Below are positions 9,842-52,606 of a DNA stretch of 64,000 nt, piece after piece. Both the position numbers and the translations under genes were made by a program. The DNA is from Candidatus Zipacnadum vermilionense (lineage in GTDB: Bacteria > Armatimonadota > Zipacnadia > Zipacnadales > Zipacnadaceae): assembly GCA_029821755.1 (NCBI GenBank), contig JALGSV010000004.1:186001-250000 (forward strand), given 5' to 3'. Each line of letters begins with the position of its first letter. The stretch's first letter is position 1. The notes under the pieces are model-generated. The model made no database searches, had not been told where the DNA came from, and saw only the letters and a list, made by a program, of their open reading frames with translations.

Positions 9842-9893
9842 CCTCACCCCCTGCGCCCTCTCCTTGCAGGAGAGGGGCGTGGAGAGGGGGGTT
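9842..9893. repeat. Family B palindrome inside the atp operon (atpH-atpA gap)
   Basis: CCTCACCCCC at 9842 leads into GCCCTCTCC TTGCA GGAGAGGGGC, followed by GGAGAGGGGGG. It occupies most of the 150-nt gap between atpH and atpA, the longest gap inside this otherwise tight operon. Confidence 0.75.
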
Positions 9894-20524: not shown

Positions 20525-20535
20525 ACGATCCGTCT

Positions 20536-20640
20536 GGCTGGGGCGGGCTCTCTGGCCCGCCCCGGCAGCGTCAGCGCCCCGGCTAGCGCGGGCTAGAAAG
20601 CCCGCGCCACGCGGAGAGAGCAGGTCTCCCCTACCTGCAG
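20536..20640. repeat. Three consecutive family A palindromes
   Basis: 20541-20562 is GGGCGGGC TCTCTG GCCCGCCC. 20588-20615 is GCGGGCTAGAAAGCCCGC with tail GCCACGCGGA. 20619-20637 is the looser GCAGGTCTCCCCTACCTGC. They fill most of the 170-nt gap between the FMN reductase and the SDR gene. Confidence 0.8.
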
Positions 20641-21465: not shown

Positions 21466-21603
21466 GGGGAAGTGGGACGTGGCAAACGACGGAAGCGTCC
21501 CGCACCGGCCAGGCGCAATCCTCGACCCGTGTTGCCTCCGACCACAATGCCGCCGGTGTCCTCGCGTTCCGCGTTCCACCTTCCACGAAAGAACGGTACA
21601 CCC

Positions 21604-23592
21604 ATGAGCACTCACGAACACCTAACGATCGACGGCGTATCCATCCCCCTCTTCCGCGTCCACACCGCCATTATCGGCTCCGGCGCGGCGGGGCTCAATT
21701 GCGCGGAGCATCTGCACGATCTGCTGGGGCCGGAGGCGGAGATTGCTGTCTTCACCTCCATCCTGGGCGGGGGGGCGTCGCATTGTAGCGGGTCGGATAA
21801 GCAGACCTACTGGCGGCTGGGGGCGGTGGACGGGGCGGCGGATAGTCCCCTGGACATGGCCAAGACCATCTCCGCCGGAGGGTGCATGCACGGCGACCAT
21901 GCGCTGGCCGAGGCGGAGGGGTCCGTACAGGAGTTCTTCCACCTGGTGCGCAACGGCGTGCCCTTCCCGCAGACCAAGCTCGGATCGTTTGTGGGCTACC
22001 AGACTGACCATGACCTCCTGCCGCGGGCGACCTCGGCGGGGCCGTGGACCAGCCGCTTCATGGTGCGCTGCGCGCTCCAGCGGCTGCGGGCGCTGGGCAT
22101 ACCGATCCACAACTCCTGCGAGACGGTGGGGCTGATAACCACCGGCGAGGGCGCCGAGAGGCGCTGCGCCGGGGTGGTGATCGTGGATCGCAACCGGCGG
22201 CATGAGGACAACTACGGCCTGGCGATAGTGGCGGCGACCAACGTGGTCATGGCCACCGGTGGGCCGGGGGAGCTGTACTTCGGGAGCGTCTACCCGCGCA
22301 GCCAGATGGGGGCGCACGGGGTGTGCTTTGAGGCGGGGATCGTTGCCAATAACCTCACCGAGAGCCAGTTTGGCTTGGCCTCGGTTAGCCCGCGCTGGAA
22401 CCTGTCGGGGACGTATCAGCAGGTGCTGCCGGCATACTACAGCACTGACCAGAGCGGCGGGGAGGAGCGGGACTTCCTGGCCGAGGTGCTGACCGACGAG
22501 TCCGAGCGACTGCTGGCGATCTTCCGCAAGGGGTATCAGTGGCCCTTCAACCCTCAGCTGGTGGCGCCGCCGGAGTCCTCGGCGGTGGATATGCTGGTGG
22601 AGCGAGAGACGCGAGCGGGGCGGCGGGTGTGGATGGACTTCCGGCGCAATCCGGTGGAGCCGCTGGACCTCAACGCCCTGCCGGCGGAGGCACGGGACTA
22701 CCTGCTCAAGTCGGGGGGAACCGGCGCGACGCCGTACGAACGGCTGCTGCAGATGAACCCGGCGGCGATTGACCTGTACAACCAGTGGCACCTGGACCTG
22801 TCGAAGCAGCCGCTGGAGATACGGGTCTGCGCGCAGCACAACAACGGAGGGTTCGCGGTGGACGCCTGGTGGGAGTCGTCTCTCCCCCACCTCTTCGTGA
22901 TCGGCGAGCAGGCGGGGACGCACGGGGTGACGCGGCCCGGCGGGTCGGCGCTCAACTCGGGGCAGGTGGGCGGCCTGCGAGCGGCGCAGCACATCGCGCG
23001 GCGCTACGCGGCGACTGAGGAGAGCGCAGGCTGGAAAGCCTGCGCCACGCGAGAGGCGGCGGAGCTGCTGGAGCGCCTGCAGCACTACGCCGAGCGGGCC
23101 GGGGAGGCGGTGGAGAGCGTGCGGGAAGCGCGAGCGTGGGTGCAGCAGCAGGTCACCAACAATGCCGGGGTGCTGCGGCGGCTCGACGCGCTGCCCGAGG
23201 CTTGTGCGGAGTTGCGGGAGAAGTGGCGGGCGATCCGCGAGCAGGGGCTGCGGCTGGACGGCCCGCAGGATGCCTACCGGGCGCTGTACCTGGAGCGGCT
23301 GGCGCTGGCGGGCTGGGGATACCTGGAGGCGGCGCGGGCCTACGGCGAGGCCGGCGGGGGCAGCCGCGGGAGCTATCTCATAGTAGACCCCGCCGAGGCG
23401 CCGGTGCATCCGGACTTCCCCGAGTTGACGGCGCGGGCGGACAACCCGGCGCTGCGGGAGCAGGTGATCGAAATCACTTTCGACGGCGACCACTGGCGGC
23501 ACACCTTGGCCCCGGTGCGGCCGCTGCCCGAGCAGAACACGTGGTTTGAGGCGGTGTGGCGGGAGTACCGGGAGGGGAAGGTGTGGGAGTAA
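21604..23592 (+). CDS. FAD-dependent oxidoreductase, succinate dehydrogenase/fumarate reductase flavoprotein-like
   Basis: 662 residues from MSTHEHLTIDG. HTAIIGSGAAGLNCAEHL is the FAD GxGxxG site. VVMATGGPGELY and HGVTRPGGSALNSGQVGG are the later FAD contacts of the SdhA/NadB/AprA family, and FAVDAWWESSLPHLFVIGE precedes the second. The last 190 residues form a helical domain. At about residues 474-484 the peptide SAGWKACAT is encoded by a complete family A palindrome lying in frame. The N-terminal extension to 21472 has no family match. The substrate is unknown; the SDR 139 nt upstream may act in the same pathway. Confidence 0.8.
   Translation: MSTHEHLTIDGVSIPLFRVHTAIIGSGAAGLNCAEHLHDLLGPEAEIAVFTSILGGGASHCSGSDKQTYWRLGAVDGAADSPLDMAKTISAGGCMHGDHALAEAEGSVQEFFHLVRNGVPFPQTKLGSFVGYQTDHDLLPRATSAGPWTSRFMVRCALQRLRALGIPIHNSCETVGLITTGEGAERRCAGVVIVDRNRRHEDNYGLAIVAATNVVMATGGPGELYFGSVYPRSQMGAHGVCFEAGIVANNLTESQFGLASVSPRWNLSGTYQQVLPAYYSTDQSGGEERDFLAEVLTDESERLLAIFRKGYQWPFNPQLVAPPESSAVDMLVERETRAGRRVWMDFRRNPVEPLDLNALPAEARDYLLKSGGTGATPYERLLQMNPAAIDLYNQWHLDLSKQPLEIRVCAQHNNGGFAVDAWWESSLPHLFVIGEQAGTHGVTRPGGSALNSGQVGGLRAAQHIARRYAATEESAGWKACATREAAELLERLQHYAERAGEAVESVREARAWVQQQVTNNAGVLRRLDALPEACAELREKWRAIREQGLRLDGPQDAYRALYLERLALAGWGYLEAARAYGEAGGGSRGSYLIVDPAEAPVHPDFPELTARADNPALREQVIEITFDGDHWRHTLAPVRPLPEQNTWFEAVWREYREGKVWE
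23024..23054. repeat. Family A palindrome inside the FAD-enzyme coding sequence
   Basis: GCGCAGGCT, loop GGAA, AGCCTGCGC, then tail CACGCGA: the same unit found between genes elsewhere in the window. Here it is read as Ser-Ala-Gly-Trp-Lys-Ala-Cys-Ala-Thr without disturbing the frame. It separates the last FAD-binding segment from a helical C-terminal domain. Confidence 0.85.
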
Positions 23593-27975: not shown

Positions 27976-28022
27976 AGCCCCACCCCCCAACCCCCTCTCC
28001 TGGCAGGAGAGGGGGAGCAGAG
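27976..28022. repeat. Family B palindrome
   Basis: AGCCCCACCCCCCAACC leads into CCCTCTCC TGGCA GGAGAGGGGG. It lies between the convergent ends of the membrane-anchored unknown and mtaB. Confidence 0.75.
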
Positions 28023-29425: not shown

Positions 29426-29505
29426 CCGCGTGGGGCGGGCTTTCCAGCCCGCCCTTTGCGACATGGTGGTCAGCCCTGGGCGGGCTAGAAAGCCCGCCCC
29501 ACGGG
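29426..29505. repeat. Two family A palindromes in opposite orientations
   Basis: 29426-29453 is CCGCGTGGGGCGGGCTTTCC followed by AGCCCGCCC. 29478-29505 is GGGCGGGCTAGAAAGCCCGC followed by CCCACGG. They form a divergent pair in the gap between the URO-D-family gene and mtaB. A partial third tail (CCGCCCCACGGG) lies at 29511-29522. Confidence 0.8.
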
Positions 29506-34859: not shown

Positions 34860-35336
34860 TTAGCGCCTCGCCGCACGGCCCCGAGGGTAGAGCCACAGGG
34901 CCACGACGATCATACCCGTTGATACGGCCACCGGTAGCCACACCGGCGCGAACCAGGGCTGGGGGATCAGGAAGAGCACGTCGGTGGTGGTCAGGCGCGG
35001 TGGCCAGTCCAGCAGCGCCTTGAGGCCCACGTAGTAGATGATATCCCACACCCCAAAGGCCAGGAGGAAGACGCAGACCTTCTCTCGGCTACTGCGCCCG
35101 ACGGCCAGCGCCAGCGCCACCAGCATGACTATAGTCGCCGCCTCGCGGGTCTGTTCGGTGGCGATGACGAAGGAAGGAAGCTGGGCAAGTAACTGGCGGT
35201 AGTCGAGCGCCTCCGACGGCATGGGGACCATGTTCCCCAAGTGGCGGATGTACACGACGATCACGGCCTCCATGTATCCCATGGCGACCGCAAAGGCGGT
35301 GAGGGCGAGAATGCGGTTCCAGGGAAGGCGGCGCAT
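34860..35336 (-). CDS. Integral membrane protein of unknown function
   Basis: 158 residues from MRRLPWNRILALTAFAVAMG, with four predicted helices (about 8-30, 66-84, 88-108 and 125-150). YMEAVIVVYIRHLG and FGVWDIIYYVGLKALLDWP look like conserved motifs, but I cannot name the family. The GGAG 6 nt before the ATG belongs to the CACGCGGAG tail of an adjoining family A repeat. The frame reads on through the repeat to 35459, but that part is not protein-like. Confidence 0.65.
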   Translation of the reverse strand: MRRLPWNRILALTAFAVAMGYMEAVIVVYIRHLGNMVPMPSEALDYRQLLAQLPSFVIATEQTREAATIVMLVALALAVGRSSREKVCVFLLAFGVWDIIYYVGLKALLDWPPRLTTTDVLFLIPQPWFAPVWLPVAVSTGMIVVALWLYPRGRAARR

Positions 35337-35344
35337 AGTTTGCT

Positions 35345-35460
35345 CCGCGTGGGGCGGGCTTTCTAGCCCGCCAGTACGCCGACAGGAGACAACATGGGCA
35401 CGGGAACGCGGGCAGGGAAGCCCGCGCCACGCGCAGCACCGGCAAGACGCCGGTACCACC
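35345..35460. repeat. Family A pair plus a third palindrome type
   Basis: 35345-35372 is CCGCGTGGGGCGGGCTTTCT then AGCCCGCC. 35408-35434 is GCGGGCAGGGAAGCCCGC with tail GCCACGCGC. 35437-35459 holds ACCGGCAAGACGCCGGTACC, a different short palindrome that on the minus strand begins 5 nt after the valS stop TAG. The three fill the gap from valS to the downstream membrane protein. Confidence 0.75.
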
Positions 35461-35464
35461 GGGT

Positions 35465-38146
35465 CTACTTGACAGCTTCCAGGGCCTCCCGCTGCTCGTG
35501 GAGTTTCGCCAGAGTACCCTTGGCTTCCTCCAGGCGTGCGCGCTCGGCGACAACAACCTCTGGCTTAGCTTTCTCCACGAAGTGCGGATTGGCCAGCTTC
35601 TTTTGGCTACCAGCGATCTTGGCTTCCATCTCGCCCAGTCGCTTGCCCAGGCGCTGCAACTCGGCGCCGACGTTAATCATCCCGCCCACGTGCAGCAGCA
35701 CCCGCGTCCCGGCGGCCACACGGCCGAGAGTGCCGGGAGGGGGGGCTGCGTCCGTGGCCAGCACATGCAGGGCCGTCACGCCCGCCAGCATCTGTATTAC
35801 CGGCTCTTGGGCAGCCACCAGCTCCCGCTGCTCGTTGGTGGAGGATAGCAGGCTTACCTCCACCTTCTGCTGCGGCGGCAGGCCAAAGTCAGCGCGCAGC
35901 CCGCGGATGGCGCTTACTATCGACTGTACCTGCGTCATCGCGCCCTCGGCCTCCGCATTCACCAGGCTCTCGTCGGCCTGCGGGTAGGGCTGCACCGCCA
36001 AGCTGCCATTATCCGGCTCCAACTTCTGCCAGATGGCCTCGGTAATGAAGGGCATCAGTGGATGCAGCGCGGCCAGAATCTCGGCCAGCAGGCGGCGCAG
36101 GAGGGCTTGGACGGTCTGCTTGCGCTCAGGATCCTCGCCGTACAGGTCCGCCTTAGCGATCTCCACGTACCAGTCGCAGAACTCGCCCCAGACATACTTG
36201 TAAAGCGCGTCGGCAGCCTGGGCCAGGTTGTAGCGGCCCAACTCCTCATTGACAGTCTGCAGCACGCGCTGCTGGCGGGAGAGAATCCAGCGGTCGGCCA
36301 GGCTGGGAGCCTCACCCCCCTGTCCCCCTCTCCTGGCAAGAGAGGGGGGGAGAGTTGCCTCCCCGATGCCCTCCAGGTTCATGATGACAAAGCGTGAGGC
36401 GTTCCAGAGCTTGTTACAGAAATTGCGCGCGCCGACGATGCGATCGCGGGAGTAGGTAAGATCCTGGCCGTGGGTGATGAGCTGCAGGAGAGTGAAGCGC
36501 AAAGCGTCGGCGCCATACTCGTCGATCAGCAGCAACGGGTCCACCGCGTTGCCCAGGCTCTTGGACATCTTGCGGCCGGTCTCGTCGCGCACCAGGCCGT
36601 GGATGAAGACGTCCTGGAAGGGCTGTTTGCCCCGTAGGTGCATGCCCAGCATGATCATCCGGGCGACCCAGAAGTAGATGATGTCGTAGCCGGTGACCAA
36701 GCAAGAGGTGGGGTAGAAGTAGCCCAACTCCGGAGTCTCCTCTGGCCAACCCAGCGTGGAGAAGGGCCACAGACCGCTGGAGAACCAGGTGTCGAGCACA
36801 TCCGGATCGGGCTCCAGGTTGGCACTGCCGCAACCGGAGCAAACGGTGGGGTCCTCCCGGCTGCAGTTCTCGGCGCCGCAGTCCTGGCAGTACCAGACAG
36901 GGATCGGGTGCCCCCACCAAAGCTGGCGGGAGATGCACCAATCCTGGATATTCTCCAGCCAATCCCGGTAGACCTTAGTCCAACGGTCCGGTACGAAATC
37001 AACTAGGCCCTCGTCCACCGCCCGCAGGCCCTCGCGGGCCAGAGGCTTCATCCGCACGAACCACTGCGTGGAGACCAGCGGCTCCACCACCGTGCCGCAA
37101 CGCTGGCACTGCCCCACGGCGTGCTCGTGCGGTTCAACCCGGTCCAGCAGTCCGCGTTCCTCCAGGTCGGCCACCACGCGACGCCGAGCCTCGTAGCGAT
37201 CGAGACCGGCGTAAGCCGCTCCCGCCTCCTCAGTCATGGTCCCGTCGCGACCTATCACCACCAGCGCCGGGAGACGGTGCCTCTCCCCTATCGCGGCGTC
37301 GTTGGGGTCGTGAGCCGGCGTGACCTTGACCGCACCGGTGCCGAATTCGAGGTCCACATAGTCATCGCCCACCACCGGGATCTCCCGATCCTGCAGCGGC
37401 AACAGGACGGACTTCCCGATCAGGTCGCCGTAGCGCTTGTCGTTGGGGTGCACGGCCACGGCAGTATCGCCCAGCATGGTCTCGGGACGAGTGGTGGCCA
37501 CCACCACGCCCGGGCCACCGTCCGGCGCAGGGTAGCGGAGGTACCACAGGTGCCCTGAGGTGGTCTCGTGGTCCACCTCCAGGTCCGACAGGCCGGTGTG
37601 ACAGCGGGGGCACCAGTTGATCATGCGCGCCCCGCGGTAGATAAGGCCCTGCTCGTACAGCGTCACAAAGGCCTCACGCACGGCCCGGCTGAGGCCCTCG
37701 TCGAGGGTGAAGCGCTCGCGCCGCCAGTCCAGGCCGCAGCCCAGGCGCTGCAGCTGGCCGGTGATGATGCCGTGGTGCTCTTCCTTGAATTGCCAGACAC
37801 GCTTGACGAACTCCTCGCGGCCGAGGTCTTGGCGAGTCAGGCCCTGCTCGGCGAGGCGTTCCTCCACCTTGTTCTGGGTAGCGATGCCGGCGTGGTCGGT
37901 ACCGGGCAGCCAGAGGGTCTCGAAACCTCGCATCCGATGCCAGCGGGTGAGCAAGTCCTGGACGGTCTCGTCCAGGGCATGGCCCATGTGCAGGACGCCG
38001 GTGACATTCGGCGGGGGGATGACGATGCAGTAGGGCGGGCGGGCAGGGTTGACCTCAGCGTTGAAAACGCCCTGGTCGATCCAGTAGCGATATGTCGGCT
38101 CCTCAATCTGTTGAGGCTCATAGGCTTTGTCCATGGGCTCCGACAT
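35465..38146 (-). CDS. valS: Valyl-tRNA synthetase
   Basis: Class I synthetase with editing domain, 893 residues from MSEPMDKAYEPQQIEEPTYR, AGGAG 8 nt upstream. HIGH motif: PPPNVTGVLHMGHAL. Zinc-type cysteines: NWCPRCHTGLSD, GQCQRCGTVVEPLVSTQWF and YCQDCGAENC with CSGCG. KMSKSLGNAVDP is the KMSKS loop. The anticodon domain follows, and a C-terminal coiled-coil arm ends the protein. Near 598-613 a family B palindrome is read in frame as ATLPPSLARRGGQGGEAP, just before SLADRWILSRQ, in a loop of variable length in this family. Confidence 0.96.
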   Translation of the reverse strand: MSEPMDKAYEPQQIEEPTYRYWIDQGVFNAEVNPARPPYCIVIPPPNVTGVLHMGHALDETVQDLLTRWHRMRGFETLWLPGTDHAGIATQNKVEERLAEQGLTRQDLGREEFVKRVWQFKEEHHGIITGQLQRLGCGLDWRRERFTLDEGLSRAVREAFVTLYEQGLIYRGARMINWCPRCHTGLSDLEVDHETTSGHLWYLRYPAPDGGPGVVVATTRPETMLGDTAVAVHPNDKRYGDLIGKSVLLPLQDREIPVVGDDYVDLEFGTGAVKVTPAHDPNDAAIGERHRLPALVVIGRDGTMTEEAGAAYAGLDRYEARRRVVADLEERGLLDRVEPHEHAVGQCQRCGTVVEPLVSTQWFVRMKPLAREGLRAVDEGLVDFVPDRWTKVYRDWLENIQDWCISRQLWWGHPIPVWYCQDCGAENCSREDPTVCSGCGSANLEPDPDVLDTWFSSGLWPFSTLGWPEETPELGYFYPTSCLVTGYDIIYFWVARMIMLGMHLRGKQPFQDVFIHGLVRDETGRKMSKSLGNAVDPLLLIDEYGADALRFTLLQLITHGQDLTYSRDRIVGARNFCNKLWNASRFVIMNLEGIGEATLPPSLARRGGQGGEAPSLADRWILSRQQRVLQTVNEELGRYNLAQAADALYKYVWGEFCDWYVEIAKADLYGEDPERKQTVQALLRRLLAEILAALHPLMPFITEAIWQKLEPDNGSLAVQPYPQADESLVNAEAEGAMTQVQSIVSAIRGLRADFGLPPQQKVEVSLLSSTNEQRELVAAQEPVIQMLAGVTALHVLATDAAPPPGTLGRVAAGTRVLLHVGGMINVGAELQRLGKRLGEMEAKIAGSQKKLANPHFVEKAKPEVVVAERARLEEAKGTLAKLHEQREALEAVK
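36309..36355. repeat. Family B palindrome inside valS
   Basis: GCCTCACCCCCCTGTCC leads into CCCTCTCC TGGCA AGAGAGGGGGGG then AGAG: the same order of parts as the intergenic copies at 9842 and 27976. It is fully within the valS frame and adds no stop. Confidence 0.85.
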
Positions 38147-46553: not shown

Positions 46554-46589
46554 GGCGGGTATTGCCGCTGCGCGGCAACGTCCGCCCCT
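46554..46589. repeat. GC-rich palindrome
   Basis: GGGCGG GTA TTGCCGC TGC GCGGCAA CGT CCGCCC is a two-step hairpin with a 3-nt bulge opposite a 3-nt bulge. It lies at the queH stop (46588) and downstream into the Gfo/Idh promoter region. Confidence 0.6.
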
Positions 46590-47142
46590 ACAACTTCGGC
46601 TGGCTATACCGGCACCCGCAGTAATCCTGCCGGTACAGCCCCAACTCCTTGCTTAACTCAATACTCCGCTGAAAGCCGCCTTGCTTGCGGAAGTTGATGG
46701 CCTCGGTCTGCGCCGGGGGATTCTCGCCCGCCGTGGCCCACAGCATCCGCTGAATGAAATCGGCGTCCTTGTGCGGACTGACACTCAGCGAAGTGTTGAA
46801 GTAATCAAATCCCCGCTGCGCCGCCTCCAGAGCCGTTCGCGTGATCCGCAGTGTCAGGCACAACTTGCACCGCGAGCCCCCCTCCGGCTGCCGCTGCCAG
46901 TCCTCTACGATGCTGACCGCATCGCGCCAATTGGCCGGGTCCGGCGCTACCTCGAGCATCTCCACCCCAAAGTGTTCCGCCACCACCCGAGTCGCCTCCA
47001 GCCGTCGCTGGTGCTCCTCCGAGGGATACAGGTTCGAGTTGTACCAAAGCAGCGTCACGTCGTACTCCGGCAGCAACCGTTCGACGCAGACCGTAGCGCA
47101 AGGACCACAGCAAGCGTGAAGAAGGAGGCGAGACTTGTCCAT
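46588..47142 (-). CDS. queH: Epoxyqueuosine reductase QueH
   Basis: Last step of queuosine synthesis in the non-QueG branch: reduces epoxyqueuosine in tRNA to queuosine. 184 residues from [20 protein letters not shown]. The paired cysteines of the family are present: HACCGPC near the start, [13 protein letters not shown] in the middle, and DYCGCRYS at the C-terminus. These are thought to hold an iron-sulfur cluster and a second metal. GAAGG lies 6 nt before the ATG. No other que gene is in the window. Confidence 0.92.
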
Positions 47143-47158
47143 CGTGCACCTTCGCGCC

Positions 47159-47240
47159 GGGGTAGCGCAGGCTTCCAAGCCTCCGTCGGACGAGAGAACC
47201 CAACCAGGGACCGCGCAGGCTTGGAAGCCTGCGCTACCCC
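47159..47240. repeat. Perfect 24-nt inverted repeat made of two A-type units
   Basis: GGGGTAGCGCAGGCTTCC followed by AAGCCT (47159-47182) is the exact reverse complement of 47217-47240. The 34 nt between them are not repeated elsewhere here. The unit at 47213-47240 is itself a GCAGGCTTGGAAGCCTGC palindrome. It lies between the ATPase stop and the queH start. Confidence 0.85.
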
Positions 47241-47245
47241 GAGCT

Positions 47246-48352
47246 TCACGCCACCCGGCTCTCCGTATCCGGGTCGAAGAAATGCAGGCGGTTCAGGTCC
47301 ACCACCACCGGCATCTCCTCCTCCGGCTCTACCCGTGCGGCGCCGTCCACCTTGACCAGCAGCTCATCCTGCCCCACCCGCAGGTGAATGATCGACTCGG
47401 CGCCCAGTTGCTCGACTATTTCCACCTTCCCCTCCAGGGCGTTGCCCGGCTCCGGCTCCACCGGCGACGACTGGCGCGGATCGAACAAGTCGGTCGGCCG
47501 CAGGCCCAGGATAATGGGCCTGCCAGCATAGCTTTGCAGCGCTCCTCGCTTTTGCGGGGGGACCTTCAAGGTGAAACTCCCCACGTCCACGCGCATATCC
47601 CCGTTGCCCCCCAGGATCTCCGCCTCCACTAAGTTCATCGCCGGGCTGCCGATGAAGCCGGCCACGAACTTGCTGGCGGGGTGGTTGTACAGCCCCAGCG
47701 GGGTGTCCACCTGCTGTACCTGTCCGTCGCGCATCACGGCGATCCGGTTCCCCATAGTCATGGCCTCGACCTGGTCATGGGTGACGTACAGCGTGGTGAT
47801 CCCCAGCCGCCGGTGCAGCTTCACCAGCTCCGCCCGGGTCTGCAGGCGCAACTTGGCGTCCAGGTTGGACAGGGGCTCGTCCATCAGGAAGGCCGCCGGC
47901 TCCCGCACAATCGCCCGCGCCAGGGCCACCCGCTGTCGCTGTCCGCCGGACAACTCGGAGGGACGCCGGCTGAGTAGGCTGCCGATGCCCAACATCTCTC
48001 CCGCCTCCCGGACCCGCCGGGCAATCTCCGGCGGCGCCATCTTCCGTAACCGCATCCCGAAGGCAATGTTGTCCTCCACCGTCATGTGCGGGTACAGGGC
48101 GTAGTTCTGGAAGACCATGGCAATGTCGCGATCCTTGGGCTCCAGATTGTTGACCAGCCGGTCCCCGATCCAGATCTCGCCCTCGCCGGGCTCCTCCAGT
48201 CCGGCGATCAGCCGTAGAATGGTAGTCTTCCCGCACCCGGATGGCCCCACCAGCACCATGAACTCGCGGTCCTCGACCTCCAGAGTCACGTCTTTGGCCG
48301 CGGTGGTGTCATCGAAGCGTTTGGTTAGGTGAACCAGACGGATTTCTGACAT
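47246..48352 (-). CDS. ABC transporter ATP-binding protein, MsmX/UgpC/MalK type
   Basis: Cytoplasmic ATPase that energises carbohydrate importers, 368 residues. Order: GPSGCGKTTILRLIAGLEEP (Walker A), VFQNYALYPHMTVEDNIAFG (Q loop), LSGGQRQRVALARAIV (signature), FLMDEPLSNLDAKLRLQTR (Walker B), VTHDQVEAMTMG (H loop). A C-terminal OB-type regulatory domain of about 130 residues is typical of the MsmX/UgpC group. No permease or binding-protein gene is adjacent, so it is probably a shared ATPase serving several sugar transporters. The start at 48352 is chosen by family; GGAGG is 14 nt away. Confidence 0.92.
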   Translation of the reverse strand: MSEIRLVHLTKRFDDTTAAKDVTLEVEDREFMVLVGPSGCGKTTILRLIAGLEEPGEGEIWIGDRLVNNLEPKDRDIAMVFQNYALYPHMTVEDNIAFGMRLRKMAPPEIARRVREAGEMLGIGSLLSRRPSELSGGQRQRVALARAIVREPAAFLMDEPLSNLDAKLRLQTRAELVKLHRRLGITTLYVTHDQVEAMTMGNRIAVMRDGQVQQVDTPLGLYNHPASKFVAGFIGSPAMNLVEAEILGGNGDMRVDVGSFTLKVPPQKRGALQSYAGRPIILGLRPTDLFDPRQSSPVEPEPGNALEGKVEIVEQLGAESIIHLRVGQDELLVKVDGAARVEPEEEMPVVVDLNRLHFFDPDTESRVA

Positions 48353-48442
48353 GGTTGTCGCGCGGGCCTCCGCCCGCTTCTGCTGCCTCTTCCCGCGTAG
48401 CGCGGCCTTTCCCGCCCGCGCCGGTTCGGAATCGCCGTGCCT

Positions 48443-48471
48443 GGCGGGCTCGCAAGCCCGCCCCACGCGGA
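48443..48471. repeat. Family A palindrome abutting the guaB stop
   Basis: GGCGGGCTCGCAAGCCCGCC with tail CCACGCGGA, ending at 48471. The guaB TAG occupies 48472-48474, so the element starts exactly where the gene ends. Confidence 0.85.
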
Positions 48472-52578: not shown

Positions 52579-52606
52579 GGCGGGCTAGGAAGCCCGCCCT
52601 GCGCGG
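52579..52606. repeat. Family A palindrome upstream of gmhA
   Basis: GGCGGGCTAGGAAGCCCGCC followed by CTGCGCGG, 26 nt before the gmhA start. The tail differs from the usual CCACGCGG by two bases. Confidence 0.8.

Follow-up and report, generated by a model that had tools for sequence, protein, structure and literature searches.

Between positions 23024 and 23052 of the window, the 64,000-nucleotide stretch of Candidatus Zipacnadum vermilionense DNA analysed here, a short palindrome of a type that mostly lies between genes is found within a gene for a flavoprotein, where it is read in frame. What kind of element is this palindrome, and how did it come to be part of a protein? The first-pass annotation took it for a mobile palindrome, possibly of a new class that inserts into proteins. 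The observations presented below point to a different kind of element: it is very probably a copy of a lineage-specific family of REPs that was moved by a REP-associated tyrosine transposase (RAYT) and is tolerated in frame as an extra peptide.

The repeat and its family

RAYT-linked REPs are defined by a GT(A/G)G head directly before a complementary GC-rich palindrome (Nunvar et al. 2010, PMC2817692). The element at 23024-23052, GCGCAGGCTGGAAAGCCTGCGCCACGCGA, reads 5'-TCGC-GTGG-CGCAGGCT-TTCC-AGCCTGCG-C on the minus strand, and it is a perfect palindrome of the REP type, with 0 mismatches to the stem-loop pattern. Its hairpin (23025-23044) consists of a perfect 8-bp stem (23025-23032 with 23037-23044) around the loop GGAA (23033-23036). 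The GTGG head (minus strand, 23045-23048; CCAC on the plus strand) directly abuts the hairpin, which fits the published definition, and an outer G-C pair, 23024/23045, overlaps it. Allowing for up to 3 mismatches, the window contains 6 matches to the stem-loop, where 0.27 are expected and 0 of 100 shuffles reach 6. The unit is thus in place as first described, except that the combination of a GCAGGCT stem with the family-A tail CCACGCG is a minor form and not the consensus.

The nine other sites that were initially listed are real copies or pairs as well. Single intergenic family-A copies on the plus strand are located at 1546-1572 and 52579-52605, and intergenic pairs at 20535-20613 (REPIN-like, with a diverged minus copy at 20535-20561 and a plus copy at 20587-20613) and at 29427-29505 (an inverted family-A pair, or REPIN). 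Three further inverted pairs overlap or adjoin predicted open reading frames: one of family A at 35346-35433, in the over-extended 5' end of ORF 34860-35459, one of the family-A type at 48394-48469, at the 5' end of ORF 47246-48466, and one of family B, with GTAG heads, at 47159-47240, near the upstream end of ORF 46588-47178. Because the coding score is negative at 35346-35433, this pair probably lies upstream of the true start. Separately, repeats of a different family, CCCCTCTCC...GGAGAGGGG, are present in the window at 9846-9878, 27983-28015 and 36316-36348.

Of this genome, a draft MAG in 115 contigs, I analysed 1.58 Mb (36%), that is the window and further stretches, 17 contigs in all. 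This fraction contains 180 loose matches to the family, 151 of them with at most 2 mismatches, and 124 of the 180 are intergenic, so that high copy number and a mostly extragenic location, both typical of REPs, are observed. The consensus of family A is AG[G/C]GCGGGCTAGAAAGCCCGC[C/G]CCACGCGGA and that of its sister family B GCAGGCTTGGAAGCCTGCGCTACCCG; read on the opposite strand, the GTGG (A) or GTAG (B) head is immediately followed by a hairpin with an 8-bp stem and a 4-nt loop, in agreement with the GC-rich palindromes with 2-4 unpaired middle bases of REPs. Neighbouring copies are in inverted -/+ order in 35 of 40 pairs, mostly with a gap of 18-25 nt, which makes REPINs of the family as a whole. 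The window copy is a singlet, with no second copy within the flavoprotein gene, and may be a remnant, whereas the mobile unit is thought to be a doublet. When the flanks of family-A copies were searched for target-site duplications, the sole signal, and a weak one, was an AG preceding the unit and a GA following it; both seem to belong to the unit itself.

I counted 108 copies of strict family A here and none in two genus mates; across 290 other genomes of the phylum there is a single copy. Family B has 32 copies here and one to two in the genus mates. Overall, the repeat is a classical REP that belongs to a lineage-specific family.

The stem pairs covary across copies, with the outer pair being C-G in 58, G-C in 54, and mismatched or wobble in 13. 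Together with the perfect stem, this could indicate that selection maintains the hairpin for a role in RNA or DNA, for instance in mRNA stability, termination or protein binding, with the peptide as an incidental product, and transcribed REPs are indeed thought to act as RNA elements (PMC3733652). However, the need of a transposase for a hairpin explains the covariation, and the ten unrelated genes do not carry their copies at a common position. I consider such a selected hairpin very improbable.

The transposases

Five PF01797 matches are present in the genome among the matches listed. One RAYT gene (G000:C71:182680-183183) scores 93.1 bits with NF047646, for which the cut-off is 80, and lies between two inverted pairs of family A whose spacers are nearly alike. 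Another (C22:1992-2537) falls slightly short of this cut-off, with 74 bits, and has inverted family-B REPs with GTAG heads on either side. Families A and B are thus each associated with a RAYT gene that has inverted copies of that family on both sides, and from this arrangement it appears that these two RAYTs moved these repeats. TnpA-REP enzymes recognise the head and hairpin in single-stranded DNA, and at least one system still cuts a GTGG variant, with a changed cleavage dinucleotide (PMC8266576).

A third RAYT gene (G000:C22:120-656, locus L244; NF047646, 81.7 bits) lies between hairpin copies at 33 and 818 which differ from the above, GGTGGGGCAGG-CTGCG-CCTGCCCCACC, and is apparently another REPtron, which has a repeat of its own. 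A RAYT-like match to the family-A RAYT (91.5 bits) is found at G000:C63:39069-39554, and a Y1_Tnp match with two internal stops at G000:C1:40305-40523 (L246) is probably a decayed transposase.

The host gene

The palindrome is located in ORF 21472-23592 (plus strand, 706 codons), encoding a FAD-dependent flavoprotein that resembles fumarate reductase and L-aspartate oxidase. This is a real gene, as it matches PF00890 (3.3e-15), has dozens of full-length homologues, and shows positive coding statistics on both sides of the repeat. Homology begins near 21601, which makes a start downstream of 21472 probable; the residue numbers 474-484 initially given for the insert fit a start at that place. 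Counted from 21601, the REP encodes residues 475-484, in the context ...AATEE-SAGWKACATR-EAAELL..., so that SAGWKACATR, flanked by E on both sides, is read in frame within an intact gene, as the first-pass annotation had proposed. The protein with the REP peptide is presumably made and functional.

These residues belong to a linker and the first helix turns behind the FAD domain, a region that is variable among homologues. A clean gap at residues 474-484, which had been predicted, is absent: the nearest homologues (80% and 69% identity) carry unrelated residues at the site and are only 2 residues shorter than the window protein. None of the aligned homologues has the SAGWKACATR residues, and neither genus mate contains the strict repeat; homologues from repeat-free genomes that share the residues, which would have spoken against an insertion, were accordingly not found. 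Probably about eight resident codons were removed by the insertion and replaced by the REP, with a shorter ancestral linker as the alternative.

A variable linker with a length difference of 2 residues might also be taken to mean that these are ordinary host codons with a chance likeness to the repeat. Such a likeness is practically negligible as an explanation, as the copy matches the degenerate 27-nt family pattern with 0 mismatches, a length of match that excludes chance, in addition to the shuffling result and to the fact that no homologue shares the residues.

AlphaFold was used to model the flavoprotein and ObgE, a second carrier (mean pLDDT of 87.4 and 78.8, respectively). In the flavoprotein model, the window copy comes after the FAD domain, where a loop ends and a helix begins. 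The ObgE insert is placed in a loop that connects a helix and a strand of the G domain and is predicted with low confidence, with residues 308-322 below 50. As modelled, both sites fit tolerated positions.

Copies inside genes

Other in-frame copies had been suggested as worth a search, and they do exist: in the 1.58 Mb, 11 copies are located deep inside ten coding sequences, namely those of the window flavoprotein, ObgE, Mfd (two copies), HolB, GlmM, a GH2 enzyme, a GH20 enzyme, a beta-helix protein, a membrane protein and one further protein. This number leaves out copies at the 5' end of open reading frames, such as window 35346-35433, because the true start is probably downstream of these, coding scores upstream being negative or near zero. 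Three intragenic matches with 3-4 mismatches (C38:112212, C71:199280 and C53:26949) were set aside as chance likenesses.

For five carriers, the window gene, ObgE, Mfd, HolB and GlmM, the site was compared with relatives, and clean empty sites were found for the latter four. The insert in ObgE, 22 residues, is missing in every relative whose sequence covers the site, and its DNA is a whole inverted doublet (REPIN), the second half of which is degenerate. Mfd has about 33 extra residues, comprising several repeat units, HolB about 44 and GlmM 13. The inserts in HolB (L148:3168-4640) and Mfd (L162:2753-6502) are composite, with a further short palindrome, CACCGGCGAGACGCCGGTGCCACC or ACCGCTCTGGAGAGCGGTGCCAC, beside the REPs; sequence like the CCCCTCTCC...GGAGAGGGG repeat also occurs in frame beside REP copies in composite inserts, in HolB (L148) and in the membrane protein (L143).

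The repeats are near-identical and the assembly is a draft of 115 contigs, so that repeat reads could have been wrongly joined into a gene. I regard such an artefact as highly improbable, as the frame is kept through inserts in ten independent genes, the units of about 30 nt are shorter than sequencing reads, and the variants differ between copies.

Copies in any predicted open reading frame number 46 of 180, compared with 157 expected, and most of these 46 are in doubtful 5' extensions; deep-intragenic copies are about 14-fold rarer than under random placement. This depletion within coding DNA is as expected if most insertions into genes have been removed.

The unit is read in plus orientation in 10 of the 11 deep-intragenic copies (two-sided P 0.012, in a small and unplanned test). 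Five of the peptides in this orientation are GGLESPPHAE or HRLGSLCYP, four are SAGWKACATR or DAGLEACATR, and one is TQAGKPALP, whereas the single copy in minus orientation encodes SPWRGLSSPR. A single preferred reading frame, which had been proposed as a test, was not found among the eleven copies, several frames being used even though the plus orientation dominates. In consensus units, between four and six of the six frames are open, and stops therefore explain part of the pattern of orientation and frame.

Eleven internal in-frame copies in ten genes within 36% of the genome, some encoding inserts of 13-44 amino acids in essential proteins, and the bias in orientation could be read as signs of a new class of palindrome specialised for insertion into proteins, comparable to the Rickettsia palindromic elements (RPEs). 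This is very improbable in view of the rarity of deep-intragenic copies, the use of several frames, the small basis of the orientation bias, and the ordinary REP anatomy with its own RAYTs. Moreover, RPE-4 and RPE-6 have a terminal CGTC tag that is absent here, where the tail is CCACGCG (CGCGTGG in reverse).

Discussion

REPs within open reading frames have been known since 2013 for the GTAG and CGTC families, the latter including RPE-4 and RPE-6 from Rickettsia; they occur in frame as singles, dimers or clusters, encode 20-82 amino acids, and are often found in replication and repair genes (PMC3733652). The copies in this genome are likewise in-frame singles, dimers and clusters, and Mfd and HolB represent replication and repair, but ObgE, GlmM and the FAD reductase are also affected, and empty sites are seen in comparison with genus and family mates, from which the strict family is missing. 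The observations fit this known phenomenon and do not amount to a new class as first put forward. What this genome adds is two new families with their RAYTs, a lineage that the retrieved papers do not treat, and empty sites in close relatives. A literature search for REPs in WS1 or Armatimonadetes returned nothing relevant.

With REPtrons (PMC2817692) the two systems share the GT(A/G)G head, the perfect, GC-rich hairpin closed by a short loop, the many copies, and a RAYT with inverted REPs on its flanks; they differ in that the GTGG-headed A and GTAG-headed B are new sequence families. As in REPINs (Bertels and Rainey 2011, PMC3116915), doublets are inverted and fairly constantly spaced, the ObgE insert being a complete one, although here the gap is mostly 18-25 nt and the window copy is a singlet. 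In-frame insertion of palindromes within proteins is common to these repeats and the RPEs, from which they are distinguished by the presence of RAYTs with matching REPs, and RPE-1 is longer than the present repeat.

In the mechanism that I propose, the RAYT, a HuH transposase with a single tyrosine, would recognise the single-stranded hairpin through the GT(A/G)G head and the stem-loop, and REPs would be copied round the genome mainly as inverted doublets. Surviving copies would be mostly intergenic, because insertions usually kill a gene. A minority may have inserted where a protein has a surface loop or a linker, and a stop-free frame and a net length divisible by three would let them be tolerated there as extra peptides. 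The window copy, in the variable linker behind the FAD domain, would probably have replaced some eight resident codons instead of being a clean addition. A more far-reaching proposal is that RAYT-driven REPs are a recurring source of new peptides in ObgE, GlmM, Mfd, HolB and other essential proteins, that their insertion may favour tolerated linkers beyond later filtering, and that host codons may be both supplemented and replaced by it. Two features could suggest a linker bias, namely that four to six of the six frames of the units are stop-free and that reading is mostly in plus orientation, yet I consider this proposal unlikely.

For those who annotate these proteins, the observations imply that GGLESPPHAE, DAGLEACATR and SAGWKACATR are repeat-derived and not conserved features. 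The in-frame protein insertions are tied to two identifiable pairs of RAYT and REP, of which none has been described for this lineage in the literature searched, and the empty sites of housekeeping genes in genus and family mates make it possible to measure how fast REPs insert into proteins and how well such insertions are tolerated.
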